Below, piece by piece: positions 703 to 63,272 of a DNA stretch of 64,000 nt. The first letter of the stretch is position 1; each line of letters starts with the position of its first letter. Origin of the DNA: Thuidium tamariscinum (taxonomy: Eukaryota; Streptophyta; Bryopsida; Hypnales; Thuidiaceae); the NCBI GenBank assembly GCA_947034885.2, contig OX344751.2, positions 3,534,001 through 3,598,000 on the forward strand, given 5' to 3'. The notes under the pieces are model-generated. The model had not been told where the DNA came from, ran no database searches, and saw only the letters and a list, made by a program, of their open reading frames with translations. A program made the position numbers and the translations under genes.

Positions 703-1547
703 TTAACCCCTAAGCGCTCAAGCAACCATTTTCTGGTCGCTGCCTGACTTCGGGCAGAATTTTCAAGAAAAAAAAAACTTTTTTCAAAATTTTTTTTTTT
801 CAGTTTTGAAAAAATTGGGTTTTCTTTCAACATTGATATTCAAAACTAAGATCAGTACGGTCAAAAAAAAGTTATAGCAAAAAAAAGGAGAAATAGTACA
901 AAGTGTCTAAAATTGCTTAGTGTTGAAAAACTTACTATTTGGGGGAATTACTGATGCTCTCTTTAGTAAATACTTTTTATTTTTTACAAGTCAATAAAAA
1001 CCATAATTTTGACCAATCAAAAAAAATTTCAAATCATAAAAATAGAAATTGTATTTTTGGTGAATTTTTGAAGTTATATCTTCAAAATTCATTTGAAGAG
1101 AATCTATAAATATTTTTTAAATTTTGATCATATGTATACTTTCTACTTTTTGTGCTTTACATTATCTTCTTTGATGCTAACTTCAAAAAAGTTGTAAAGC
1201 TTATATTTTATAACACATTTGTATTTTGTCTTAATCCCTTGGGCTTTTAGAGGTTGAATATTTTGCATTTTTCTATAAATCAATAAAAAAACACAATTTT
1301 GACCAATCAAAAAAAATTTCAAATCCTAAAAATAGAAATTGTATTTTTGGTGAATTTTTGAAGTTATATCTTCAAAATTCATTTAAAAATAATCTAAAAA
1401 CATTTTTTTTACTTTGACTGTATGGACACTTTCTACTTGTTGTGCTTTACATTATCTTCTTTGATACTAACTTCAGAAAAGTTGTAATTCTTATATTTTA
1501 TAGCACATTTGTGTTTTGTCCTAACCCCTTGGGCTTTTAGGGGTTAA
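703..1547. mobile_element. TTAA-flanked piggyBac-like non-autonomous element
   Basis: The segment starts with TTAACCCCTAAGCGCTCAAG and ends with CTTGGGCTTTTAGGGGTTAA. The two ends are inverted repeats matching at 17 of 20 positions, and each contains TTAA at its outer edge. It has no coding capacity. Its interior is mostly a 290-bp direct repeat listed separately. TTAA target sites with CCC-starting termini are the hallmark of the piggyBac superfamily. That assignment is an inference, since no transposase is present. Confidence 0.6.
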
Positions 1548-6090: not shown

Positions 6091-6962
6091 CTTTTTGAAA
6101 TATTTTTGAACATTATTTCTTGCACTACTATACAAATATATTGATTGAATCAAATATATAATAAAGTTTGGTATACACTACAACAAAAAAGTATTTTCCA
6201 AGGTTCTTTTTTTTTTCATTCCAAAAACTTTAGAAATAATATTTTTCAAAAAATTATAACATATATTCGGTTGGTGGTATTTCTATTAAGGAAGGTTTAC
6301 CTATATTGAATCACAAACTTTAGTTGCCATCAATAGTATTTATTTTATTCACTTATTTATTAAGAGGGGGTTTGTAGTTTTGTAATGTCTCTTCCTCTAT
6401 CGACATTGACAAAATTTTAATAAATAAAATAAAAATCTCTTCCTTGCAATACAATCATTGATAATTTTACACAACAATCCAAACCCTACAATAGAACCTC
6501 CTGTAATGTGGAAGAACCTCAAAACATTAATATAAGTAATTTAGCATAGCTACAAACACCTTTACAAAAATCAATAGTCAACAAATCAAAGTTAAGTATA
6601 TATCCTTCAAATGTGTCATTGAATGAGACTTGAACATTTAGAGGACACATTAATCAAAGTCTAGGAACACAATTAGGAAAGTCTAGGATACAAGAATGGA
6701 AATAAATACATTAATGGTGTTTTTATATTAACTCTCAATTTAATGCAATTTGGCATAGTTGGAGGCATTTTTACCAAAACAATTAATTTTATGATATTGA
6801 AAATTGAAAATCTTTAATTAAAAAAAATGAATAAGGCATCTAATTTCTATGAATCTTCAAAGTATTTGAGCTCCCTAGGACACCTTCAAATGCACTTTGT
6901 AAAACTAACCTTGGTTCTTATACCAAAATCTAAAAGAAAATCCATAGCCTACCAACCATAGA
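6091..6962. other. AT-rich intergenic DNA
   Basis: No gene was found. An isolated CACTA-like end (CACTACAACAAAAAAG) occurs at 6176, but no matching opposite end was found nearby. Confidence 0.4.
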
Positions 6963-7583
6963 TAATTCCTAAATGCTCCAAGGCACTAAAATTTGGTGTT
7001 TGCAAAACTTTGAAGTTAAATAAAACCTAATCAAGTTGCTATTTTTAGTAGTTTGTATTTTTTTGGAGAATTCTTTTCAAAGTCTACTTTGAATTCCTAA
7101 AACTTGATCTTGAAAATGATTGACTATGATTTTTCTATTCAAGATTTTGTACAAGGGTACCCATTGCAATCTTGACTTTTTCTAGTGATGAAGTCTCTTG
7201 GAAACAAGCCTCAAGACACTACATCTTGGAGAAAAAGTTACATTTGAAATTCATTCAAAAAAATTAAAGAGTAGATTTTGAGAAGCCATAAATTGATTGG
7301 AATTATGTATGTAAGGCCCTTTCACAACTTGAAAAAAGAGGAGTAAAAGACTTCACATCACTTTTCCAATTTTAACACCCTCATCATCAAACATTATGAT
7401 TTTTCAATCCTTAAGTGTTATTGGTGTGTTTTCTTTTCCTAAGTAATCTATGACATATTTAGTTTGAATTTGTATAGTTATATTTTAAAAAAATTGATAG
7501 AGCTCATCATAAAGTTGATTTTTTGGTCACTTTAGAGCAAATTCCTAAAAGCTCAAAAAAAATCTTGGACATTTAGAGGTTAA
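6963..7583 (-). mobile_element. TTAA element, inverted copy of 48493-49145
   Basis: Read on the minus strand it aligns over its whole length with 48493-49145. Shared blocks include AACCAAGTTGCTATTTTTA-type sequence, GATTGACTATGATTTTTCTAT, ACCCATTGCAATCTTG and TCTTGGAGAAAAA. The intact end at 7580 reads GACATTTAGAGGTTAA. The end at 6963 is eroded (ATTCCTAAATGCTCCAAGG). There is no coding capacity. Confidence 0.65.
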
Positions 7584-12560: not shown

Positions 12561-13974
12561 TTTTCCGGTTTTTGCTGTGTTGGTGTGGATTCTAGTTGCT
12601 CATTATGGACTAGGTAATGTGAAAGCGGAGCTGGGAGAGGCATGGCATGGAATTTCGCACAATGAGGCCTTGTTTTCACAATATTGGACATAAACTCCAT
12701 TTTGAATGGTTGGATCTTGGTCAACTACGATCAATCAAGGGTCTAGAAAGAAAGGGCAGTAAAAGGAAAAGAAGCCGCACGTTATGAAAAAGAACGTACC
12801 AATCTTCATTCAATGAGAGATAGTTGTCTGGTTGGAAATGGATTCAGTTGAGTTCATGCCATGATTTATACTAGTGCAAGCAAAATGTCTTAGATTTTCT
12901 TTTGCATTTTTTGGACAGACAAATAAACTAAAAAATTAAGTTCTGAGAATGAGTGTAGCGTTCACAAAACTAGCTAAATTTCGCTCCATTGCTTCTAAAT
13001 AATTTCAGTAGCTAAATCTCTATAGGAAAAAATCTTTGAAAAAATTAAATTTTAGCTAAGATTTCAACAACCAATATGATAGCCAATTTGTTACTTACTC
13101 TACATTGGAATTAGCATCTCTGTAGTTAGTTATGAGTTTTAGTACCTTTATCCTTTATAACTTGCGAAATCCTTTCTTTTCTAATTTTTTTAATGTCACT
13201 CTCTCTCAAGATAGCCAAAGTTGATGCTTATTTATCTTGAAAGTAGCAAATTGCACTAAATCATCTAAACTAGGTAGCATATTACACTAAATTTTATAAA
13301 CTAGTTCTAGGATCATTGGTGTCAACCTACTTGACATTGTCATGAATACATGGAGGATATTTTGTACAAAAATCTATAGCGGTTGGATTTGAAAGGGATT
13401 ATAACTTGGTGTGACAATGTCATAATATGTACAATGACCTTCCCTCATAATAATTGTAATCTATACCAAAAGATATATGTTTGTTTTGTTTTGTTTGTTA
13501 TGTTGAGATCTTTGGGACTGTGTTGTCCAATCACTTTCTTGCCACCATCGGAAAACTTTTAACAAGGGGTGCACAAGCTTTGTTGTTTCGTGGCATTCCA
13601 AAGGACAATGAGAAAGTTATTGAATTTCAAAGTTTTCATGCATTGGAAAATTGAAAAATTACTTTTATTTTTGTTCAGGGTGTGGCAATAGTACATGGCA
13701 CACTAGCATCTAACCATGGTCTTTGTACTTTGAAGTCCAGTTTTTGGATTATGATTTGAATACTCAATGCAAGGAGAAATGTCTTCATGTAAGAAAATTT
13801 CATTCATTACAATAATGTTTGAATAATTGACAATTGCACTTTTGTATGGCCAATTTGATGAAATTGAATAAAGATTTTTTATTTTTTATATTACAAGTGA
13901 TTAATGAGAGTTACGAGGAGTCTTAGTTTGGGGGTAGTTTGAAGGTAGTTATAGAATTTCTAATCTACAAAAGA
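12561..13974. other. Intergenic DNA
   Basis: No gene-like frame, RNA gene or paired repeat terminus was found. Confidence 0.5.
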
Positions 13975-14534
13975 AGTTTGAAATCCTTTATTTATTTCAA
14001 TTTCAATGTTCTTGAAAAAAAAAAAAACATTGGGTGAAGATTGTTTATTACAATATTAGAACCATTGGAGTTGGGCGATGACATTTTTCATTTCCATAAA
14101 TAAATTATTCACAAATTAGTATTTTGATTCATTTTCTATTTTTTCTACTTATTATTTTTTTCCTATATGTTGTACAATTTCAAATGATTTGAAAATTTTT
14201 GAGCATATAGACAACTTGCATTGAAGGATGAATCCATAGAGTAACCACCATTTTGAACATTTTTTCATATAAATGTGACCTTGTGAATTGCAACTACCCA
14301 AATTTTTGTAGGGATAAAAAAAAGGACTTTTGTCAATTCAAATGTTAATATCTTGCGATTTACAAGATGGAATTTTTTGAAATTTTTTCCACATCTTTTC
14401 AAACCATCTTACTACAAGATTCTATAGTTTCACGTGTCAAAAAAATGTTTTTTTTTTAGAATTTTACACGTATTAGAAATCACAATTTTGGAGTGTTTTT
14501 GGTGAAAACATAGTCAAAGACCTATAGGTTTTAA
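13975..14534 (-). mobile_element. Truncated TTAA element (same family as 60662-61609)
   Basis: Read on the minus strand it matches 60662-61220 closely. It shares GTGAAAACATAGTCAAA next to the terminus, the block about CAAACCACCTTACTACAAGAT, and GTAACCACCATTTTGAA. The outer edge is TTAA at 14531-14534, with a mutated terminus (ACCTATAGGTTTTAA). The other half of the element is missing. It directly abuts the LINE remnant that follows. Confidence 0.65.
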
Positions 14535-18162: not shown

Positions 18163-19190
18163 ATGTACAGTGGGGTCCCAATCAAAATGGCGTTTTTGAA
18201 ATCGCAGTGAAGGAAATTTCAATGCAACCGACTTTGAGAGCCTCTCAAGAGCTGAAAAATTGGTATTTTACCACGAAATTTTTACCACAGCATCATCTTT
18301 ATGTTAATAACATGTGTGCTAAATTTCAAGGCCAGAAGATTCACCATAGAAAAGTGATTCAAAATCTACCAACATGGGTAGTAGTGAGAAACATTTCACT
18401 ACTTTCAACTTTGATACCTTCTTAAGGATTGAGTTTTTTTTCTTTTGCCATGAAATTTTTGTCATGAAACAATCTCTATGTTTTTAATATGTATAAAAGA
18501 TTTCAAGTTAAAAACAAAATTTTTACAAAGATATTTGAAATTTCCCAACAGTTGAATAGACAAATTTTCAGCCCTTGGGAGGGTGTCAAAGTTGGCAATA
18601 GTGAAAATTTTCTCACAACTACACATGTTGGGAGATTTTGTATATCTTTTTTTTGGTAATTCATTTGAAATTGAAATTTGGAGCACATATTATCAGCATA
18701 GAGATGACTTCATAAAAAAATTCATGGTAAGAAACCAAATTTTCAACCCTTGGGAGGGTGTCAAAGTTGGCAATTGTGAAAATTTTCTCAAGACTACACC
18801 TGTTGGGAGATTTCAAATATCTTGTAAAATTTTATTTTCTTACCTTGAAATCTTTTATGCATATTAAAAACATAGAGATTGTTTCATGACAAAAATTTCA
18901 TGGCAAAAGAAAAAAAACTCAATCACTAAGAAGGTATCAAAGTTGAAAGTAGTGAAATGTTTCTCACTACTATCCATGTTGGTAGATTTTGAATCACTTT
19001 TCTATGGTGAATCTTCTGGCCTTGAAATTTGGCACACATGTTATTAATATAAAGATAATGTTGTGGTAAAAATTTCGTGGTAAAATACCAATTTTTCAAC
19101 TCTCGGGAGGCTCTCAAAGTTGGATGCACTGAAATTTCCTTCACTGAGATTTCAAAAACGCCATTTTGATTGGGACCCCACTATACATTT
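18163..19190. mobile_element. Long foldback element built of about 176-bp modules
   Basis: The left arm 18163-18551 and right arm 18800-19190 are inverted copies of each other with high identity. The termini read TACAGTGGGGTCCCAATC at the left and the complement of TATAGTGGGGTCCCAATC at the right. The right side consists of about 176-bp modules in tandem starting at 18579, 18754, 18930 and 19107, each beginning G(A)GGGTGTCAAAGTTGG or a variant. The left arm holds the same modules in the opposite orientation. The short frames on both strands here arise from the symmetry and are not genes. TA next to CAGTGGGG hints at Tc1/mariner-type ends, but the superfamily is unproven. Confidence 0.7.
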
Positions 19191-21162: not shown

Positions 21163-22068
21163 TTAATCCCTAAAATTTCAAGGCCTTTTTATCTCAAAAA
21201 ACACTCAAAATTGCCATTTCTAGTGTGAAGAGCAATTTTTTCACATTTTTTTACACCAATAACTATAGAATCTTAAAATAGATTAGTATGAAAAAATGAA
21301 TTTTTTTTAGAAACTTTGACCATATAAATTGAAAGATATTTGCATACGAAGTCAAAGAATAAACAAGACATGGTTTTGGAGTTCAATGGCAAGCCACTTT
21401 ACAAGACTTTGAATCTTCTTAGTATTACTTTTGAATTAATGATTGTGAGTTAAAAAAATTATTACAAATAAATGAGTTCAAAGTCAAAGAAAAATATTCA
21501 AAAAACAACAACATGATATCCATGTTGTAAAAAATTGTTATGCAAAGTAGATTTAAGATTGGTGAAAATATTGGATTATTAATAACTTTGAGATGAATTT
21601 TAAAAAAAATACTGATTCAAACATTGAGATTGTTCTAACAATAAAAGTTAACCTTGCGGAACAATTTTTTTTGGAAAATATGAAAATTGAGCTCAAAAAC
21701 AAATCCAATATATTATTTTATTAAAAAAATACTTCAATTGCTTGCAAAAACAAGATGCTACACAATTTCTCATTGTTTATCTAAATGAATGATCCCCAAG
21801 CTTTCCAAGTAGACAAAAATACAATTTACATTAAAAGAATTTGAATTTTTGAATTTCAAGTTTTTTGTGGATTACTTTTGCTTCCCATCAAGTTGAAATT
21901 TGTGCTTAGGGTAGCATGGTCTTGTGCATTGAATGGAATAAAAATTATATTTTCCAAAAGCTAATGCATTTTTCTATCTTAGAAAAAAATTTCACCATAA
22001 TTGAGATTATAATAACTTGTTTGAACTTTCATTTGTCTTTGAGGGAACAATGAGACTTTAGGGATTAA
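21163..22068. mobile_element. TTAA-flanked piggyBac-like element
   Basis: It begins TTAATCCCTAAAATTTCAAG and ends GAGACTTTAGGGATTAA. The inverted ends share TTAATCCCTAAA plus several further bases. After the left end comes GGCCTTTTTATCTCAAAAAA and AAATTGCCATTTCTAG, the same sub-terminal arrangement as in other TTAA elements here (for example 60662). There is no coding capacity. Confidence 0.55.
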
Positions 22069-30058: not shown

Positions 30059-30847
30059 TGTACCCAATCGACCATATATATAATCGATCTGAAATTTCAA
30101 GCCCATTTCTGAATGGGCAGTTAAATTCTTGTGACCATTTAAAAAAAATTCAAGCAGTTTCAAGGGTTAACTATTGAAAACTTTCATTTTTCACTAAAAA
30201 AAATACATATTTGATTATTGAGAAGTCTTCAAAGGCATACATGTACCATAAGTGAAGTGTAAAGCTTGCCAATTTTACTTCATTTCCTAACTTTATGCAA
30301 TTTCACTTAATTTGAGATCTAAAAAATTGTACATATCCATTTATTTTGAAAATGGTCCCAATGGAAATAGGAAAGTGTTTTCATGATATTCACCATTGAA
30401 AATTTGAACATACAACTATTGATTTGGAGTTATTTGCAATTTCTACTTATAAAAATAATTGCATTTCAACAATTGCAAGGTGGATTGTGTAATGAATTTA
30501 ATAGCTTTTCATGTAAAATTAAGGTTTTTAGAAGTGCATTGAGTGTGCTAACACTTTTTGTAGTTGTTTATGTCACCTCAAATCCCCCAAAAAATTCATA
30601 TGCAAATTTGAGAAACATTGTGGGAAAAGGCAACATACTAAATATAGAAAATGTACTCTTCTTCTGTTATAATCTCACAACTCCAATGCAATTTTGTGCT
30701 TAGAATTTGTGTACTTACTAATAAACAAGCTCTTTAAACATCTATGTGGTTAGATTTTGGAAAAAAATCAATTTGCTTCACTAGGGGTCCATGCACTTTT
30801 TTCATAGTCAAAACACACTTGAAAAGGCTTGGGCATTTAGGAGTTAA
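30059..30847. mobile_element. Right part of a TTAA element, related to 4100-4742
   Basis: It aligns with 4112-4742 and then continues to an intact right terminus, GGCTTGGGCATTTAGGAGTTAA-like (30826-30847), ending in TTAA. Its left terminus is missing. Together with 4100-4742, which has only the left terminus, it shows that one family has both ends. The frame at 30383-30703 is inside the element and has no recognisable domain. Confidence 0.6.
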
Positions 30848-39860: not shown

Positions 39861-40400
39861 TTAACCCCTAAATTCCAAGGCCTACTATAGCTTTTTTGGG
39901 TTTCAAAACCATTCAAAATTGTTTGTAGAAAAATTCAATTGTAGGATCATGCAGTACATTTGTAGAAGACCATGTGGTAAAAAATTTGCAAAGTATAACC
40001 TTGTAGATTGGAACATTTGGAAGATCCACATGTACCCAACCATTAAAGGTATTCTAATTTTTAGAGGTGCCATGATAGAAATGACCAATGGGGATTGCAA
40101 AAATTTTGGTAATTTTATTTTATGAATTGAGATTACTATGAATTTTGAAAGGCAAAAAGTGTGACAGACCCATTGCCAATTTGTATACTCTTCTAATTCC
40201 GATCTCACAAAAAACTATTTTTTTATTCACTCCTTCCTACTTTCTTGCACACTACTTTGGGACATGTGCCATGAACTTTTGGTGCCAATTTTGAAAAGGA
40301 GAAAAAAAAAACATTCTAGCCTTGGATGGAAATACGTCCAATGATAGGGGTGGTTCTACCTTAGAAGTTGATGATAAAGTTTTTTGGGAAGAATTTCAAA
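39861..40400 (+). mobile_element. Left part of a TTAA element
   Basis: It begins TTAACCCCTAAATTCCAAGG, followed by the sub-terminal pattern shared with the 21163 element (GGCCT..., then runs of Ts and CAAAATTG). Interior blocks match the minus strand of 3550-3860 and, more weakly, 44990-45290. No right terminus was found. Frames on both strands at 39903-40208 are accidental. Confidence 0.5.
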
Positions 40401-40928: not shown

Positions 40929-41131
40929 CACTATAAGATAAAGGAGTGTTTTAAGTATAGTCCTAGTAGTATAGTCTTTTAAGTAATGACCTTTACGTAA
41001 AAAATTTACTAAAATTTTACTAAAAAGCTTGTATTTTTAGTAAAACTTTATTAAAAAACTTACTTAAAGGTCATTATCTAAAAGACTATACTATTGGGAG
41101 AATACTAAAAACATCCCTTTTTCTTGTAGTG
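40929..41131. mobile_element. CACTA-type foldback MITE, 203 bp, TSD ATA
   Basis: Left end CACTATAAGATAAAGG, right end CCCTTTTTCTTGTAGTG. Extended inverted sequence includes AAAGACTATACTA and TAATGACCTTTA against their complements. The 3-bp direct repeat ATA occurs at 40926-40928 and 41132-41134. CACTA ends with a 3-bp duplication define the CACTA (En/Spm) superfamily. Confidence 0.85.
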
Positions 41132-44484: not shown

Positions 44485-44816
44485 CACTATAACAAAACAT
44501 GGTCAAAAATATCACACTCAAAATTGAGTGCGGTTTTTTTTGCCACAATTTCGTGCATGCCGACTACACGTGTAGACATCGTTTTTTTGCAATTTTTCAC
44601 TACAATTTTTGGAATTTTTGAGCATGTAATATACCATTGTAAAGGTATTAAAAATACCTTTGCAACGGTATATTACACGCCCCAAAATTCTAAAAATTGC
44701 AATGGAAAATTGCAAAAGAAGTTGATTGCCTACTATATGCGCATGTACAAAAACATGGCACAAAAACCTGCACTTGATTTTGAGGGCGGTTTTTTTTACC
44801 CTGTTTTGTCATAGTG
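44485..44816. mobile_element. CACTA-type foldback MITE, 332 bp, TSD TTC
   Basis: Left end CACTATAACAAAACATGGTC, right end complementary to CACTATGACAAAACAGGGTA. Inverted similarity extends about 60 bp inward and resumes around a central hairpin at 44630-44690 (GTAATATACC... against GGTATATTAC). TTC is duplicated at 44482-44484 and 44817-44819. Frames on both strands at 44518-44814 come from this symmetry and are not genes. Confidence 0.88.
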
Positions 44817-45290: not shown

Positions 45291-46547
45291 TTTTGTAGTG
45301 AATTTTCAGATTTAGACCAAGGAGCAACAACTTCCCGAAATTCACTGAAAATAGCATATTTTGTGATCCATTTTTTTACTAACTTCTCATTCATGTGAAG
45401 ACAAATACTAGCAAAACTACAAATTTAGTTAGGTACTCTTCATAACCCTCCATGAAAGGTCAATAAGCAAAACATGAATGAAAAATTGCTTTCAATCTCT
45501 CCATATCCCACCTCCTTGTCATCCAAACGCCACAAATTGGCACCGCCAGTGTTACTGGGTTAAATGGTTGGTTACTGATGCTTCAATCTTAAGTTTGCTT
45601 AGAAACTTGTGACATTCCGATCAGTCGTTTCTTCAAATGTTTCTTTTCTTTTCTTTTTAAAATGCCAAATGAAAAATTTGACATTGGAGGAAATTTGAGG
45701 TCTTCAAAGGGCTGTTTCATGGTTGTTCCCCGAAACTATTCCCGTAATTGCTGGCCGCTTTCAGGCCAACGTTTCAATTCAAAATAAATAAATAAAATTT
45801 AAAAAATAAAAATAAAATTGGGGTCCTCAAATATGAAAAAAGTTTTTTTTTTTTTAATAAATAAAATTTAATGACCTGGCACCCTCTTGACCACGTAGAA
45901 TTCATGTTCACATGGCAGAAACTGCATTCCCGCAATCTAGGAACCTGCAGTCTTCCAATGGCCTCAAAAATCCCCTAATGTTTCAGGCAGTTCACTGCAA
46001 AACAGTGTGACAACAAACACAAAATAATTGTATGGAATTGTGTTTGTTGCAGTTTTCATAAGCAGAGTGTGTGTGAGAACTGGTCACACATGAAGCTTCA
46101 ACAACTACAGTACCTCCAGTAACTTACAGGTACTGATCCTCAAAATCTCAAAATCTGATTGGTTGAAAAGTTGAAACTCCGACCTGTGTTTTTAATTCTG
46201 GATACCAGTAAGATAGGTTAGTACAGAAAAAGATCTCCCCTGCCTCACTGGAGTCTCATATCCATGGGCATGCTTGAAGAATGTAAAGTATGAATGAAAG
46301 TTTGTTTATTTGTAAACTATGGATCAAAAGAATGCATCCTGCAGTGCAACAGCCGGCATCTCAAGATTTTGTATCCGCAAAAGGTAGACAAGCCTATTAG
46401 CACCCGGATTTGCAATCTGACTATGTTGGGGCCAATCTCAAAGAGTGTATATTTATTCAAAGGTGTGTGTGTTTGGTTCATGAGTCAAACTCATGTGGAA
46501 TTATAATTTTCCGATTGGAAGTGTAAATCCTGTGAGTTTTTGACATA
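45291..46547. other. Intergenic DNA, slightly GC-richer than its surroundings
   Basis: No gene is recognised. A small hairpin lies at 46011-46049: CAACAAACACAA, 15-nt loop, TTGTGTTTGTTG (12-bp perfect stem). The frame at 46294-46506 shows no domain. Confidence 0.45.
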
Positions 46548-46844
46548 AGGTAGGGGGCTGTAATTGTTGCAACCCTGTCTCTAAAAGCGATCTGGTAGAT
46601 TTTGCCTTTAACATATACCAGAAGTGTACATTTCAGGAGGGGGTCACTTTTAGAAACCATCGTGTTTTCAACTTCAAAAATTCATAACTAATTCCATGAA
46701 GGTCCAAAAAATATGAAATGACTTGGGTTAGATGCCAATTCCATTTTTCTTACCATGAAAATTTACTAAAAATAGATTTAAGGAGTTTAGCTTCTCCAAA
46801 ATGAAAATTAGCTAGTAAAGGGTCGCTTTCACAACCCCCTACCT
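46548..46844. mobile_element. TA-flanked MITE, AGGTAG family, short copy
   Basis: Ends AGGTAGGGGGCTGTAATTG and the complement of AGGTAGGGGGTTGTGAAAG, with TA on both sides. Interior blocks CACTTTTAGAAACCATC, CAACTTCAAAAATTCATAAC and GAGTTTAGCTTC match the longer copy at 2639-3213. Confidence 0.7.
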
Positions 46845-47410
46845 TATATAGTTGTGAAACAACTTAACTGCCCATAGAGTAAAGTCATGAATATCCTCTT
46901 AACAACCCATAAGTACTTTTTAATGTATCTAAGGTAGCCAACCTATTTCCAATCACTTAAGCAATTACACATAGTTAGAGTGCAGTTTTTTTTTATTGCA
47001 AAGTTTTTTCCATGTACAGAAATAGAGTTTGAAAAGATAGTATATTTTTCTAGAATTTTATTACATAAAGTGTAATTACTATAAATTTTTTAGTAGAAGA
47101 TTCTTCTTGATCTATATTGGTAATATGGATCTTATTAATTCAGACTATAGGCTGATTACAAAATCGACCAAGGGCTGATTGCATTTATGAGAGCCTTACA
47201 ACCAATCCTAATGTGCCACAATTGCTTCGGGAGCTGCACCACAACTTCACGGAAAAGAAGCTAACTATAGATTGGAAATAGAAGGGGGGTGATCGGAAAT
47301 GGATTGGCTACTTTATCAATATCTAAATATTTACCAATCGTGTATTGACATGTTACCCTTAATGACAATATTGCACTAATTTTGTCAAATTTCTACATTG
47401 CATAGGGGAT
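46845..47410. other. Intergenic DNA
   Basis: Nothing recognised. Confidence 0.4.
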
Positions 47411-48342
47411 TTAACCCCTAAAGGTTTTTGACTATGTTTTCACCAAAATTGCTCCAAAACTGTCATTTTTAGGATAACTATCAAATATTAGAAAAAAAAC
47501 ATTTTTAGAATAATGTAACCGTAGGATCTTAGAGTACACTAGTTTGAGAGCATGTACAAAAAATTTCAGAAAATTCCGCCATGTAGATTGTAAGATAAGA
47601 GTGTTTGAAGTTACAAAAATCCCTTTTTTACCACTGCGGAAATCCGGGCAGCTGTACTTCAGAAGGCCACATTTGTATGAAAAAATATTCAAAATGGTTG
47701 TTACTCTTTGGATTCATTCTTCAATTCAAGTTGACTACATGCTCAAAAAATTTCAAATCATTTCGAATTGTACAACATGTACAAAAAAAATAGTAAGTAG
47801 AGAGAAGTAGAGAATGATTCAAAACACTAAATGTTTAACAATTTATTTATTGAATTGAAAAATGCCAATCTCAATGGTTCAAATGTTGTAATAAACATTC
47901 TACACCCAATGTTGTTGTTGTTTTTCAAAAATATTGAAAATTGAGTAAAATAAAGGACTTCAAAGTTTATTTTAGAGTAGAGAATCCATAACTATCCGCA
48001 AACTAAAATTCTTCATAACTTTTGACTCATTAATCCAAATGGAATGATTCAAAGATTTCCACATATATATAAATCTATAAAACCAATTAAAAATTTTGGT
48101 TTCCAAAAAAAGTGATTTTTTTTAATCTGCCCGAACTGCCCGAGTTGAGAAACAAACAACATATTATGCAATAACTTTTCAACCATGTAGTCAAAAGTCA
48201 TGAAAATTGTTGGGCTTGAAAGATACTCCTCGTCCACACCTTCTATTAAATTTTGGTTCTGAAATATAGAAATCTCTAGTCACACGTACCTGCCCAAAAT
48301 CGCTATGTTGCCAAAAAAGCACTTTGGTCCTTTAGGGGTTAA
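47411..48342 (+). mobile_element. TTAA-flanked piggyBac-like element, 932 bp
   Basis: It begins TTAACCCCTAAAGGTTTTTG and ends GTCCTTTAGGGGTTAA. It is co-linear with the copy at 60662-61609, sharing ACTATGTTTTCACCAAAA, AGATTGTAAGATA-type and CAATGTTGTAATAAAC-type blocks and a right half with AACTTTTGACTCAT and CTGCCCGA. No long frame survives, so it is non-autonomous. Short frames at 47432-47810 are incidental. Confidence 0.75.
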
Positions 48343-48492
48343 GGGGACCAAAAAATTGAAGGGACTTATTGTAGAAAATAGTAGATGTTGAAAATAGGAT
48401 GTACAACAGCCAAACACTTCAATAACTATTGATGTATATCAAAGGTAGATGTTTACACAGTGTGAAATGTCAATTAATTAGTATGGATTCCC

Positions 48493-49145
48493 TTAACTCC
48501 TAAATGCCCAAGGCCTTTTTTGAGCTTCTAGGATTTGCTCTAAAGTGAACAAGAAATGAAAACTTTAAGATGAGCTTTATCAACTTTTTAAAAATTTAAC
48601 CATACAAATTCAAACTAGACATGTTAGAGATAATTTTAGTAAAGAAAACACAAAAATATCACTTCCAGATTGAAAAGTTATAATGTTTGATCATAAGGGT
48701 GTTAAATTGCAAAAGTGATGTGAAGTCTTTTAGTTCTCTTTTCACAAGTCAAATCTAAAAAGTTGGTGACAAAAAAAATATGAGGTGAAAGGGCCTAACT
48801 TACATAATCCCAATCAATTTAAAGCTTCTCAAAATCTAGTCTAAAATTTTCTTAAACAAATTTGTAAAGTGATTTTTTCTCCAAGATTTAGTGTATTTGA
48901 GGCTCATTTTCAAGAGTCCTCAACACTAGAGAAATCCAAGATTGCAATGGGTATCCATGCACAAAATCCTAAATAGAAAAATCATAGTCAATCATTTTCA
49001 AGATCAGGTTTTTGATGCTTAAAGTAGACTTCCAAAAGAATTCTTCAAAAATACAAAATATTAAAAATAGCAACTTGGTTAGATTTTCTTTAACTTCAAA
49101 GATTTGTAAACACCAAATTTTGGTGCCTTGGGCATTTAGGAGTAA
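48493..49145 (+). mobile_element. TTAA-type element, 653 bp
   Basis: Left end TTAACTCCTAAATGCCCAAG at 48493, right end GCCTTGGGCATTTAGGAGTAA, with the last TTAA mutated to GTAA. The terminal inverted match is about 18 bp. The inverted copy is at 6963-7583. It lies only 150 bp from the previous TTAA element. Non-coding. Confidence 0.7.
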
Positions 49146-50335
49146 AACCTCCTATTTGGTGTAAACAAATTTGGTTGCTTGAATGAATGGAATTAGGGCC
49201 AAATATAGGGTGACAAAAAATTGAGTTGGAGATAGAATTAGGTTGGTTTATCTTAACAATTTCATTCATTGAGAGAGGCAATGTATTTGGTTATATATTT
49301 TATTAAATATTAAGAACATCAATTTTGAATGGATTATTTTCTTCTTAATAATAACCTTGACTCCAAATTGATTAAAAAAAAACTCTCAACTCAAAATTTA
49401 AAATTATAAACACTAATAAAGCTCCACATTAAAAGAACAATTATTCCAAATGATGCTTTTGTATTGTATTTGAGCCAAAACTAACACAATTGTACTTGGA
49501 ATTATCCAAATCTAATACAAAACCATCATCTAGAATGTCTTTGTAGTATAGATTTCAAATAACAAAATTTGTAAACCATTTTCACTTTGAAAACACAGAA
49601 TTCATAAATATTTGATAATAAAAATTTATACCATTTTTTATACTTATTTGAACTTTTCAACCACCATGTGTTTGATATTAATTTGATGTAGTATAAAATG
49701 CAAATCTTCTACAACTTCGTGTGGGTCTTTTGTGCAAGATTTGTGAATTTTTTATATTTTGAAATCAAAGGTCAAAAGATATCATTCTATTCAGAGACTT
49801 TTAATTAAGGATTATAAAAGTTGTGTATTGTACTGGTCTTCAATTACAACTACAAAAGCAGAGGCAAAGTAATTGTGCTAATTTTACATATTTTACAAAA
49901 AAAATTGGAATTACAATGTACTTTCTATTCCACCTTCAAGGACCATAATTGGATGTTGTTAATACAATACAATATATACACGGATCCCACTTCAAAATGC
50001 TTCTTCTTTTACAATTGGATACACCAAATCTCTAATTTCTAATAAAAAAGAGCAAACTTATGCAAGTTATGACTTAAAAAACTTGTATAGTCAAGAACTA
50101 ATTGAAATCAAGCCATATGAAGCATTTAGAGGCTAAACCAAGCTATTTTTGTTGTACAATTTGAAATGCGATTTGAAATGCAAATAGGACATACTTTATT
50201 TGATATGTCTACAACTAGAAACTATAGGCTTCAATGTCATTGTTGTTTTTACCATGTATCAAAGGATTTACCATGGTGATTTTCTACTTGCTTACAATAC
50301 ATTCCTTCTATTCTACTAAAAAACTCCATTATTAA
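49146..50335. other. AT-rich intergenic DNA
   Basis: No gene or paired repeat end was recognised. The frame at 49821-50042 shows no domain. Confidence 0.5.
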
Positions 50336-52486: not shown

Positions 52487-52678
52487 CACTAGTAGAAAAC
52501 GTAGGAATTTTGACAAAATTCTGTTGATTTGGTCGCGTTGTTCCGGTCACTATTTTGTTGATTTCAACAGAAATCTGTTAGAATTAACAGATTTATGTTG
52601 AAATCAATAAAATAGTGACCGGAACAACGCGACCAAACCAAAAAAACTCTGTCAAAATTCCTACGTTTTCTACTAGTG
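52487..52678. mobile_element. CACTA-type foldback MITE, 192 bp, TSD GAA
   Basis: It is a nearly perfect palindrome with ends CACTAGTAGAAAACGTAGG and its complement. Arms share TTGACAAAATTC..., GGTCGCGTTGTTCCGGTCAC and GATTTCAACA. GAA is duplicated at 52484-52486 and 52679-52681. The low divergence between arms suggests recent origin or strong constraint by symmetry. Confidence 0.9.
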
Positions 52679-55022: not shown

Positions 55023-55241
55023 CACTAGAAAAAAACCATGTTAAAATCCCTGAAAACACGTCACGTAGTTTATGTTGAGTTCCTGTATCGAAACGCAGTC
55101 AAAATGCAAAAAAACACAAAAGAAATGCTTTTTTAGTTGTTTTTTGCGTTCTGACTGTATTTTGACTGCGTTTCAAAATAGGAACTCAATATAAACTACA
55201 TGACGTGTTTTCAGGGATTTTAACATTGTTTTCTTCTAGTG
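55023..55241. mobile_element. CACTA-type foldback MITE, 219 bp, TSD CAT
   Basis: Ends CACTAGAAAAAAACCATGTT and the complement of CACTAGAAGAAAACAATGTT. The arms continue with AAAATCCCTGAAAACACGTC and GAGTTCCT..., and meet near 55130. CAT is duplicated at 55020-55022 and 55242-55244. Confidence 0.9.
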
Positions 55242-56186
55242 CATATTTTTACAATAAGGTACCTCAAACTACCTTATAAATAGCTTCTATTGGAACAAAG
55301 CCTCTTTTCCTTTGATTTAGAGTCAATAACTAAAAATAATAATTGTTTGAGATTTAACACAATTGTCATCAACAAAAGTTGTACAAAAATATAAGAGAGA
55401 CCATACATTTTTTTTAAATAATAATACTTTGATCATTTGGGTTTTAACAACATTATTAGCTTTGAAGCTGTAACTTGGGTTGTAGGCTCATTCATAGAGT
55501 ACTTTAAACTAATATTTATAAGTGTTTACCTTTGGATATATAAAAATCAAAATAATAATCTACTCATTTGGGGTTGAATGTAAAATTTGGCTTCTATTCT
55601 ATGTTATTCATAACATTGAATAACCAAGCAATGGTCTTCTTCATGCTAAGAATGTATTATGCCTCCCTAGATGCCCAATAAAGAATTGTTCATTAATGCA
55701 AGGATTGGAGTTGGCTATGGAGCAATATAAGACAATTTTGTTTGATTTGGGCATCTTCTTTTCAAGAATGCAAAAAAGACCCTTATCTCATTAGTAAACA
55801 ATGCAAAGATTCTATTACATGAACCTAGAATTACAAATACACGAGTATAGAAATTAATAAACATCTTTTAATAGATTGTAAGGTATCTATTTATTCAAAT
55901 ACCTATACTCCATCCCATAGTCCATAGGCTTACATTACCATACTCAAATGCTAGTGTCTTTGATAAACCATATCATGTTTTGTTTGTATTTCCAACGTAC
56001 TTTAGAGTCTTCTATTAGAGTAGTTTGCATACAATAATTTTTTGTTTTTTTCCTTAGATAAAAAAGATTACTAATTTTTTTTTGACACAAATGAGGCCAA
56101 ACTCCATTGCAAAACATTAAAGTACAAACTTGCCAATCACATAAGGTAATTTAGAGCTCCAAATTTTTAGCACCATAAGCTTAAGG
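55242..56186. other. Intergenic DNA
   Basis: Nothing recognised. Confidence 0.45.
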
Positions 56187-56846
56187 TAGACTAGCCTAAT
56201 TCTGTTTGCAACCCATTTTTGTCACCCTATATTTGGCCCGATTTCCACCCATGCCACCATCCAAATTTGTCGAGGAGTGAGCCAATTCTCTCTAGAAATT
56301 TGACAAAATCAGTGCATATATGTCATTTAGGGTAACATGACAATAGCTAATTAGAAAATACTTAGATGCTTATAGAGACATAAGAAGGTTCATGACCCTA
56401 GTCTTGAGCACTTTGTAATTTAGGTCTGTACACTTCAAAAATTCATAGAAATTACAATTTCAATCAGAAAATTATAATTCTACTTGGATTCGATTCGTAA
56501 AACATGTGCACCTCTAAAAAAAAGTAGACCAACCTTATTCCGTCTGCAATCCATTTCCATCCCCAAACATTTGGCCCCATTTTCACTCATTCCACCATCC
56601 AAATTTGTCCAGAAATGAGCCAATTCTGTCTAGAAATCTGACAAAATTAATGCATTTATGTCATTTAGGACAACGTGGCAATAGTTGATTGGAGAATACC
56701 TAGATACTTATAGAAACATAAGAAGGTGGTTATGGGTGGTTATTAGGATGTTCATGACCCTAATCTTGAGCACTTTTGTAATTTAGGGCTGCACACTTCA
56801 AAATTCACACAAATTACAATTTCAATCAGAAAATTATCTTGTGGCT
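56187..56846. repeat. Tandem duplication, 338-bp unit
   Basis: TAGACTAGCCTAATTCTG at 56187 corresponds to TAGACCAACCTTATTCCG at 56525. Both units contain CCACCATCCAAATTTGTC, GAGCCAATTCT and CAATTTCAATCAGAAAATTA. Divergence of perhaps 10 percent and small indels show that it is not recent. Confidence 0.85.
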
Positions 56847-56908
56847 GGTGCCTTGTACCTTTATTTCTAGCAATGAAATTCCGTTTCATTTGTTTCAAAA
56901 AAAAAAAA
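56838..56908 (+). mobile_element. 5'-truncated SINE-like retroposon with poly(A)
   Basis: A 59-nt body ending CAATGAAATTCCGTTTCATT plus TGTTTC and a run of 12 A is flanked by TCAGAAAATTAT on both sides (56826-56837 and 56909-56920). The unoccupied site survives in the first tandem unit near 56460 (TCAGAAAATTATAATTC). A related tail is at 57590-57637. Confidence 0.8.
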
Positions 56909-56920
56909 TCAGAAAATTAT

Positions 56921-57062
56921 AATTCCACTGGGATTTGATTTGTAAAACATGCACGCACCTCTGGAAAAATATGTGTCCCTCTTAGAATTGTGATTCCACT
57001 GGGATTTGATTTGTAAAACATGCACGCACCTCTGCAAAAATGTGTGTCCCTCTTAGAATTGG
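56921..57062. repeat. Tandem duplication, 71-bp unit
   Basis: AATTCCACTGGGATTTGATT at 56921 recurs as GATTCCACTGGGATTTGATT at 56992. The two units are almost identical, with CATGCACGCACCTCTG and TGTGTCCCTCTTAGAATT. Confidence 0.9.
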
Positions 57063-57589
57063 CCCCAAGATCACTCAGTCAGATTGCAAGTCAGGGTGGT
57101 AATAGGGTGTTCTACCTTAGCAACATTTGAAAAGAGTCAAAGTTCTCACTTCACAGGCAGGGTCCCTTGTGTACTGGCACCTGGCACCATTGAATCGCAA
57201 GTGAAAGGGGTCCTGGTACACTTTCCCTCCAACTGTACTGATTTGCATATTATCATCTTCTGCAAAAAAAAAATTTATATTAATTTTAATTTTAATTTAA
57301 TTTTTTTAATTTTTTTTGGGGGGGGGGACAAGGCCAGTGGGGGAGGGACGGTGACCAATAAGGAAAGAAAAAAATCCAAAGGGAAAAACAACCCATCTGG
57401 TCCTCTGGGTACTACTGTAGTCCTGCAATTTTGTAGCCAGTACAGCAAATTGAGAGCAATTCTCACACTGGTTTGACTGGCACAACCGACTTTGACTACT
57501 TACTTGAGTCAGGGCTGTTCAACTGAATTAGGAGGAGGCAGTTACTGTCACTATGATATGTCCTCAAGAAAAAAAAATTGAAAAAAAAC

Positions 57590-60661: not shown

Positions 60662-61609
60662 TTAACCCCTAAAGGTTTTTGACTATGTTTTCACCAAAAA
60701 TGCTCCAAAACTGCCATTTCTAATACAAGTGCAATTTTTTTTAAACATATTTTTGACTCATGTAACCATAGGATCTTGTAGTAAGGTGGTTTGTAAACAT
60801 GTGGAAAAAATTTCAGAAATTTCCACCGTGTAGATTGCAAGATATAAGCATTTGAATTGACAAAAATTGTTTTTTTATCCCTGCAAAAATCCGAGCAGCT
60901 GCACTTCACAAGGTCACATTTGTGTGAAGAAAATTTCAAAATGGTGGTTACTCTTTGAATTCATACTTCAATACAAGTTGTCTACATTCTCAAAAAATTT
61001 CAAACCATTTGGAATTGTACAACATAAAGGAAAAAATAAGTAAGTAGAAAGAGGTAAAAAATGAGCCAAAATACTAAATTGTGAACATTTTATTCATGGA
61101 ATTGAAAATTTTCAATCCCAATGGTTACAATGTTGTAATAAACAATCTACACCTTCTGTTTTTATTTTTTTCCAAAAATATGAAAAATTGAATTAAATGA
61201 AGAATTTCAAACTTTTTTTGTACTGTAGAGATTTTGTAACTAGCCGCAAACTACCCCAAACTCAAAATCTTCATAACTTTTGACTCATCGATCAAAATGG
61301 ATTGATTCAGAGCTTCACATGTCTGTATAAACCTAAAGAACCAATTTGAAATTTCACTTTTTTTTAAAAGTTTTTTTGAAGAAGTTTTTCAGCTACCCGG
61401 TTTGCCCGCCGAGTAAAGAAAACAACATATCCTGCCATAACTTTTTAACCGTGAAGTCAAAAGTTATGAAAATTGTCGCGCCTTAAAGCTACTCCTTGGG
61501 CACACATTGTATCAAAATTTCAAAGAAATAAAATAAAAACTCCATTTGTAGTGAGCTGCCCAAAAAATTTATAATCTCAAAAAACGTTGTTAAGGGCTTT
61601 AGGGGTTAA
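60662..61609 (+). mobile_element. TTAA-flanked piggyBac-like element, 948 bp
   Basis: It begins TTAACCCCTAAAGGTTTTTG and ends GGGCTTTAGGGGTTAA. It is co-linear over its length with 47411-48342, and its left half matches 13975-14534 in inverted orientation. The frame at 60691-60939 (minus) is inside it and is not a transposase. The best-preserved member of its family here. Confidence 0.78.
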
Positions 61610-62295: not shown

Positions 62296-63272
62296 TTAAC
62301 CCCAAAGTGACATTCAATTTTCAGGATTCAAAAACATCATTGCTTTTGAAGCTTTATGGATTTGAATGTCTTCATGTTATTCAAATCTCAACCGTATAAT
62401 CTTGTAATTTACATGTTGTAGATGACATGTACAAAATTTGAAGTCATTTGACCACAAAGATTGCAAGATCGTAATGTTTTGATGTTGAAAATGGATGCTG
62501 AAATTTTCCTAAAAACACATTTGGAGGTGAAATCTGATTTCTAAACCTACTCAAATGAAAAAACTTTATCCTACAAAATCATTCAAAACTAGTATACAAA
62601 CACATTGGTGAAAAAAAAATTCATTCAATTGACTCATTGTGTCTACAAAACGACTTTGAAATGTCAAAAATCAGCAAGAAAAATTGCAAAAAACACATCT
62701 AAAGTAGAACCTCCTTCTACTAGATTGCTTCTCAGTCACTCATTAATTCTTGGATTAGCATGAAATTTTAGCCACACAAACAAGACTATTATGCACAACT
62801 TTTCCAAAAAGAATTATTGAAAATGGCCTTTGTATGAAGGAGAAACAAGCCGCCAAAGTTCATTGTACTCGAATATTGGCAGGATGTTGAACTTTGAATC
62901 GCTCCAAAACATTCAAAACAACTTGGATTGATATGAAAATTTTATTACAATAAGAAGACTTCAAGGGGAACAAAACCCATCAAATTTTACTGAAAACAAA
63001 CATTAGATGAAGTAGATACAAGCCCCCGAAGTTGCAGCCCTAAAATGCAGTTTGGTGAAATCAAATTGAGCTGTAAAGTTCGATTGGCCACTAAAATTTC
63101 ATTATAACTTGGATTGATTTGAAAATTTTATCACACAAACTAGAAGATATTGCGCAACTTTTCCAACAAGTTTCATTGAATTTGGACCTTGGATGCAAAA
63201 GTTACAGCACTTTGAATTGGACTTGAAACTCTATGAGGACACTTTTTGTCCTCTTTGTCATTTTGGGGTTAA
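62296..63272. mobile_element. TTAA-flanked element, CCCCAAA variant, 977 bp
   Basis: Begins TTAACCCCAAAGTGACATTC and ends TGTCATTTTGGGGTTAA; the inverted ends match at 16 of 17 positions. The interior has at least three degenerate units sharing ACTTGGATTGATATGAAAAT-type and CGCAACTTTTCCAACAA-type blocks (about 62750, 62920, 63110). The block GACCACAAAGATTGCAAGAT at 62450 resembles one in the 60662 family. Confidence 0.65.

Follow-up and report, generated by a model that had tools for sequence, protein, structure and literature searches.

The element at positions 60662-61609 is almost certainly a non-autonomous, non-coding transposon of the piggyBac superfamily, presumably moved by a transposase of the same genome and belonging to a family that expanded in one burst. 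We directly observed TTAA flanks, empty paralogous sites, transposases with the catalytic triad, and large and small elements with matching ends. The window, that is the whole 64-kb stretch of DNA analysed here (G000:C3:3534001-3598000), belongs to a 363-Mb assembly of 19 contigs. The initial annotation had already proposed a piggyBac identity, and this proposal is supported by TTAA duplication, C-rich ends and PF13843 transposases in the genome. The elements and element ends of the window are the following.

60662-61609, forward strand: non-autonomous element assigned to piggyBac, family F1; 948 bp including both TTAA, 13-bp inverted ends, non-coding.
47411-48342, forward strand: F1 relative, TTAA-bounded; 932 bp, 77% identical to 60662-61609.
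13909-14534, reverse strand: incomplete F1 copy in inverted orientation; decayed terminus at its TTAA end, 14531-14534.
21163-22068, forward strand: divergent F1 relative; 906 bp, TTAATCCCTAAA ends.
703-1547, forward strand: non-autonomous element of family A, TTAA-bounded; internal tandem duplication of about 290 bp, ends matching a transposase-bearing element.
48493-49146, forward strand: family F2 element; 654 bp, one TTAA, the other end decayed to TTTA.
6962-7583, reverse strand: family F2 element; 622 bp, decayed ends (ATAA, TTAACCTC).
62296-63272, forward strand: element with TTAACCCCAAA ends; 977 bp, TTAA-bounded.
30064-30847, reverse strand: family F3 element with a single defined end, TTAACTCCTAAATGCCCAAG, clear at 30847.
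39861-39872, forward strand: lone element end TTAACCCCTAAA, an end motif with no partner assigned.

The boundaries described initially for 60662-61609 were recovered exactly: the element opens with TTAACCCCTAAAGG and closes with CTTTAGGGGTTAA, with TTAA on each side and 13-base inverted ends. The same is true of its co-linear relative at 47411-48342, which has identical boundaries and aligns at 77% by BLAST across 47411-48254, and of the inverted partial copy ending at the TTAA at 14531, which is 81% identical to 60662-61609 over 629 columns and whose decayed terminus reads TTAAAACCTATAGG. Further TTAA-bounded segments had also been announced; they are present at 703-1547, 21163-22068 and 62296-63272, and those at 48493-49146 (TTTA) and 6962-7583 (ATAA), which are 80% alike in inverted orientation, have one end decayed each. 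The element at 21163-22068 shares 68% with 60662-61609 over the first 190 bp, in an alignment that begins one base ahead of the TTAA. Both ends of the 60662 family are CCCCTAAAG, which gives it inverted ends starting with CCY as in piggyBac; departures from this start are seen in family F2, which begins with CTCC, and in 21163-22068, which begins with TCCC. A relative of the right end of 62296-63272 adjoins a transposase element in locus L031 (78% over 120 bp).

The search of the genome by DNA with 60662-61609 gave 7,290 first-look candidates, 40 of which were scored. All 40 are near full length, with identities of 94-95% except for the window's own copy. In family F1, 28 copies are more than 90% identical, lie at a distance of 1.9-3.5% from the consensus and differ pairwise by 3.2-6.0% (mean 4.75%), and such low divergence between the sequences fits a single burst of expansion. 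The longest stop-free stretch of the 951-bp consensus is at most 92 codons. Subterminal repeats are present in insect piggyBac; here, an inverted repeat between the two subterminal regions did not rise above the shuffled null (27 vs 36), and the left subterminal end scored 46 against itself in the same test.

The abundance of these elements is illustrated by the exact end motif TTAACYCCTAAA. It occurs 8 times in the window against 0.06 expected, a count reached in none of 100 shuffles. The initial annotation had suggested scanning the whole genome for the termini and had remarked that an abundant non-autonomous population would be notable; the scan yielded 21,583 exact ends (10,809 + 10,774) and 366 occurrences of the reversed pattern (180 + 186), an approximately 59-fold excess. 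Among the first 100 genome places listed, neighbours within 1,200 bp form 16 convergent, 2 divergent and 2 same-strand pairs, and 12 of the 16 convergent pairs are 915-952 bp long. The signal lies in the specific motif and not in TTAA by itself, and the two looser scans that follow are too weak to stand by themselves. Single ends matching a loose profile number 55 in the window, within the range of 33-61 in 30 shuffles, and their pairs are in excess (42 vs 4-21 in 30 shuffles). Generic TTAA-anchored inverted pairs show a slight excess (24 vs 8-23 in 20 shuffles; 8 vs 0-3 with at most two mismatches), and the AATT-anchored control gives 43 pairs with twice as many sites as TTAA. The 20-base end pattern had no match in viral contigs. 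We also observed that piggyBac-type ends often abut: two divergent ends stand on one shared TTAA in locus L039 (181-184), and ends lie a few bases apart in L031 (150-160) and L033 (4008-4013). The TTAA of an older copy may be a preferred target for new insertions.

The genome encodes piggyBac transposases. The search with PF13843 (DDE_Tnp_1_7, the piggyBac transposase domain) gave 659 first-look candidates, and all of the 116 that were scored lie above the Pfam cut-off, the best with 275.7 bits; 30 loci were returned. The domain had no match in 14 control genomes, but those named are archaeal, and therefore this zero says little about plants. One transposase family comprises at least 11 near-identical loci (L040-L050) with 99-100% protein identity, and outside this group most of the 30 loci compared share approximately 25-70%. 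Two of the 11 loci were taken whole: both elements are 5,096 bp long, 99.96% identical, begin and end with an exact TTAA and sit in different flanks. Their ends are TTAACCCTGAAACGCCGG and TTAACCCCTAAACGCCGG, and in the one copy that was read the frame is open over 1,009 aa. The second transposase-bearing element (C7:5357160-5363105; 5,946 bp) ends in TTAACCCCTAAACGCCCAAGGGG and TTAACCCCTAAGCGCTCGAGCGACCATTTTCTGG; its domain stretch is open for 527 aa, and since a stop separates it from a 312-aa stretch upstream, this copy may be defective. As a separate observation, the piggyBac transposase in locus L060 (3446-6475) has about 500 additional N-terminal residues ahead of the conserved domain.

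Comparison of both transposases with the PDB by sequence returned piggyBac (6x67) and piggyBat (9c0f) as the sole chains at E 0.001. A Foldseek search with a low-confidence model of the 527-aa protein (mean pLDDT 59.8) gave three matches under E 0.001, two chains of piggyBat and piggyBac, with E values of 2.6e-15 for 9c0f and 5.1e-15 for 6x67. In the alignment of 10 transposases, picked from 31 for their open frames, D190, D277 and D393 are invariant in 10 of 10 and most of the C-terminal cysteine set is kept. These three residues stand opposite the aspartates of the piggyBac DDD triad, which we take to be D268, D346 and D447.

The initial annotation had also called for a search for a piggyBac transposase gene with the same termini as the small elements. 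PF13843 transposases do occur in elements ending in TTAACCCCTAAACGCC; for the 60662 family the correspondence concerns the terminus only, and its parent was not found. Neither of two long (5-kb) exact-end pairs matched either transposase. The connection is closest for the window element at 703-1547, which shares 22 of 23 bases with the C7 element at the right end and 91.7% over 48 bp at the left end. Both ends being shared, this element is tied directly to a transposase-bearing piggyBac. With the C7 element, the 60662 family shares its terminal 12 bases and, further inward, short stretches of 28-36 bp in the subterminal regions. One could argue that piggyBac is limited to the large elements and that another transposase moves the 60662 family, using the same termini by convergence; the missing parent and the two unmatched 5-kb pairs are what this argument can draw on. 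The 12-base terminus, the target and the genome are nevertheless all the same, and even the subterminal similarity to the C7 element, weak as it is, speaks against it, which makes convergence very improbable.

Both 5-kb pairs were considered as autonomous copies and rejected: one is a 47411-type element with a 4.1-kb insert whose ends are TGTGAGCGCT...CTCACA, and the other consists of separate small elements at the two ends. The 4.1-kb insert in the 47411-type element of locus L063 (822-4931) has ends TGTGAGCGCT...AGCGCTCACA with TCTGC on either side and is probably an LTR element.

Elements of the Kolobok type share the TTAA duplication and are known from a chlorophyte and red algae, but there is next to no chance that they account for the window elements: according to the accessible text of PMC9587614 their termini are 5'-RR and YY-3', a pattern already contradicted by the CC, CT or TC of the window termini, and the transposases with matching ends carry PF13843 and match piggyBac structures.

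The piggyBac identity is further supported by the target site. Flanks were read for 28 of the 40 scored F1 copies and for two divergent copies contained in the sequence around them, 30 in all. TTAA is present on both sides in 27 of the 30, and beyond it the flanks have only an A+T bias in common. Three copies deviate: L007 has TTAT on each side, L008 has ATAA on one, and a copy in L021 is decayed. The copy in L007 (1501-2448) occupies a non-canonical target and has a clean 4-base direct repeat, TTAT, on either side. An inverted terminus would give TTAT and ATAA; thus the direct repeat indicates a duplicated 4-base target.

Empty sites were sought by comparing the joined flanks of 36 elements (these 30 and six more window elements) with the window and 28 loci. 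Five of the 36 (L002, L004, L011, L015 and L022) matched across the junction, and the best match of each has a single TTAA, ATAA, TGAA or TTGA, with no extra duplicated bases in any case. The host sequence of L004 is a relative of the window element at 47411 and has a single TTAA there, with TGAA in two remoter relatives; L011 lies within a tandem array whose matching monomers have a single TTAA in 6 of 6; the L015 site reads ATAA, at 96% identity; the L002 site reads TGAA in 3 of 3. The five alignments of the L022 site read TTGA (two), TCAA, TTAA, and TGA with one base missing. The remaining 31 joined flanks had no junction match within the window and 28 loci, a sample too small to weigh either way. 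The expectation of empty sites with a single TTAA, set out in the initial annotation for orthologous positions, is borne out at sites that are paralogous repeats rather than orthologous positions, with TTAA or a one-base variant in the best match of each. Taken with the flanks of 27 of 30 copies, the five empty paralogous sites show a TTAA target duplicated on insertion, as in piggyBac.

That the elements could instead be Tc1/mariner (TA) or PIF/Harbinger (TTA/TAA) transposons with a chance preference for TTAA is barely conceivable: TA, TTA and TAA all lie within TTAA, so a shorter duplication could hide there, and these superfamilies are the usual sources of plant MITEs (PMC12550479, in its accessible part), but an outer T and an outer A that hardly vary on either side make a four-base boundary, the TTAT repeat of L007 is not what a duplicated TA or TTA plus an inverted remainder would give, the ends are common to elements with piggyBac transposases, in none of the five empty sites is TA or TTA alone kept amid unrelated bases, and neither the 3-bp TTA/TAA duplication of PIF/Harbinger nor the 2-bp TA duplication of Tc1/mariner was found.

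For the piggyBac reading we propose the following course of events. A piggyBac transposase encoded elsewhere in the genome would recognise the CYCCTAAA ends, excise the element, presumably in a seamless manner through hairpins, and join it to a TTAA target, which would leave TTAA on both sides. The small elements would be mobilised in trans by the enzymes of larger relatives with shared ends. As the copies are near-identical, transposition may be recent or even continuing.

The window harbors other repeats as well. Four near-palindromes starting with CACTA (e.g. CACTAGTAGAAAAC), at 40929-41131, 44485-44816, 52487-52678 and 55023-55241, look like CACTA-type MITEs. The long inverted repeat at 18163-19188 is a foldback-like structure, with 392-bp arms that are 93% complementary, a 242-nt spacer and more repeats inside. 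Another repeat is present at 56183-57118 in two copies with a spacing of 338 bp, and its relative at 46381-49256 is broken by the elements at 47411-48342 and 48493-49146, with 150 bp unexplained between them. The repeat at 56150-57300 was considered as an exact empty site for 47411-48342, being interrupted in the right area, and was dropped: its copies agree to no more than about 77-84%, and the 150 bp are not accounted for. The wheat element Mariam was likewise dropped as an identity, being described in the accessible part of its source as without TIRs and with a 9-bp duplication. Visual inspection of the window open frames of at least 110 aa, six of which were also run on Pfam, revealed no transposase; shorter remnants may still be present in the window. 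The Rfam search of the window gave no match. Pfam found DUF1644 in the window, a domain that to our knowledge is plant-only. The genome also contains IFT57 (279 bits), which as far as we know is lost in flowering plants and conifers. Together they point away from flowering plants, to a putative land plant that has swimming sperm or to a charophyte alga.

According to the accessible text of PMC12732532, the superfamily belongs to animals, fungi and protists, and plants, red algae for instance, contribute only occasional cases. Plant genome engineering borrows the animal piggyBac (PMC10794571; PMC8525353; both in accessible part). The initial annotation held the superfamily to be rarely reported from land plants. 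This statement holds, and "never" would be wrong, because the portion seen of a C-fern repeat table contains a small PiggyBac class of 1,230 copies (PMC6890710) and PiggyBac is named in a review as one of the MITE superfamilies of angiosperms (PMC10004981, accessible part). Among the open-access matches listed, that table was the only one for fern piggyBac, none dealt with piggyBac native to a bryophyte, lycophyte or charophyte, and the sole moss match contained merely the word "piggybacking". The survey of 207 plant genomes in PMC12550479 distinguishes five MITE groups and one special group, and the accessible main text has neither "piggybac" nor "ttaa".

We face what is probably a native and diverse piggyBac community of a seed-free plant lineage, active recently or even now, with many transposase families, one of them at no fewer than 11 near-identical loci, and non-autonomous copies that would number in the order of ten thousand, given the 21,583 exact ends. 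If so, this would be a natural plant piggyBac system and not a relic or a stray annotation. The mechanism is already known; what is new is that a plant-like host carries a rich and diverse population, part of it intact. Such a population, probably mobile in recent times, would redraw the host map of the superfamily, would pose the question whether it is an old presence or came by horizontal transfer, and would offer transposases already adapted to plant cells.

In comparison with known systems, the elements follow the piggyBac superfamily as represented by Trichoplusia piggyBac and bat piggyBat in the TTAA target and its duplication, the C-rich ends, and the PF13843 transposase with its DDD triad and C-terminal cysteine-rich segment; they differ from it in their plant-like host and the diversity of their families. 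Beetle piggyBac ends start most often with CCCT and the beetle proteins have 500-725 aa (PMC12732532, accessible text), whereas one transposase described here has a long extension at its N-terminus and reaches 1,009 aa. Like the plant MITEs of the PMC12550479 survey, in so far as its accessible text describes them, the small elements are short, non-coding, high-copy and bounded by inverted ends. Contrastingly, they are TTAA elements.
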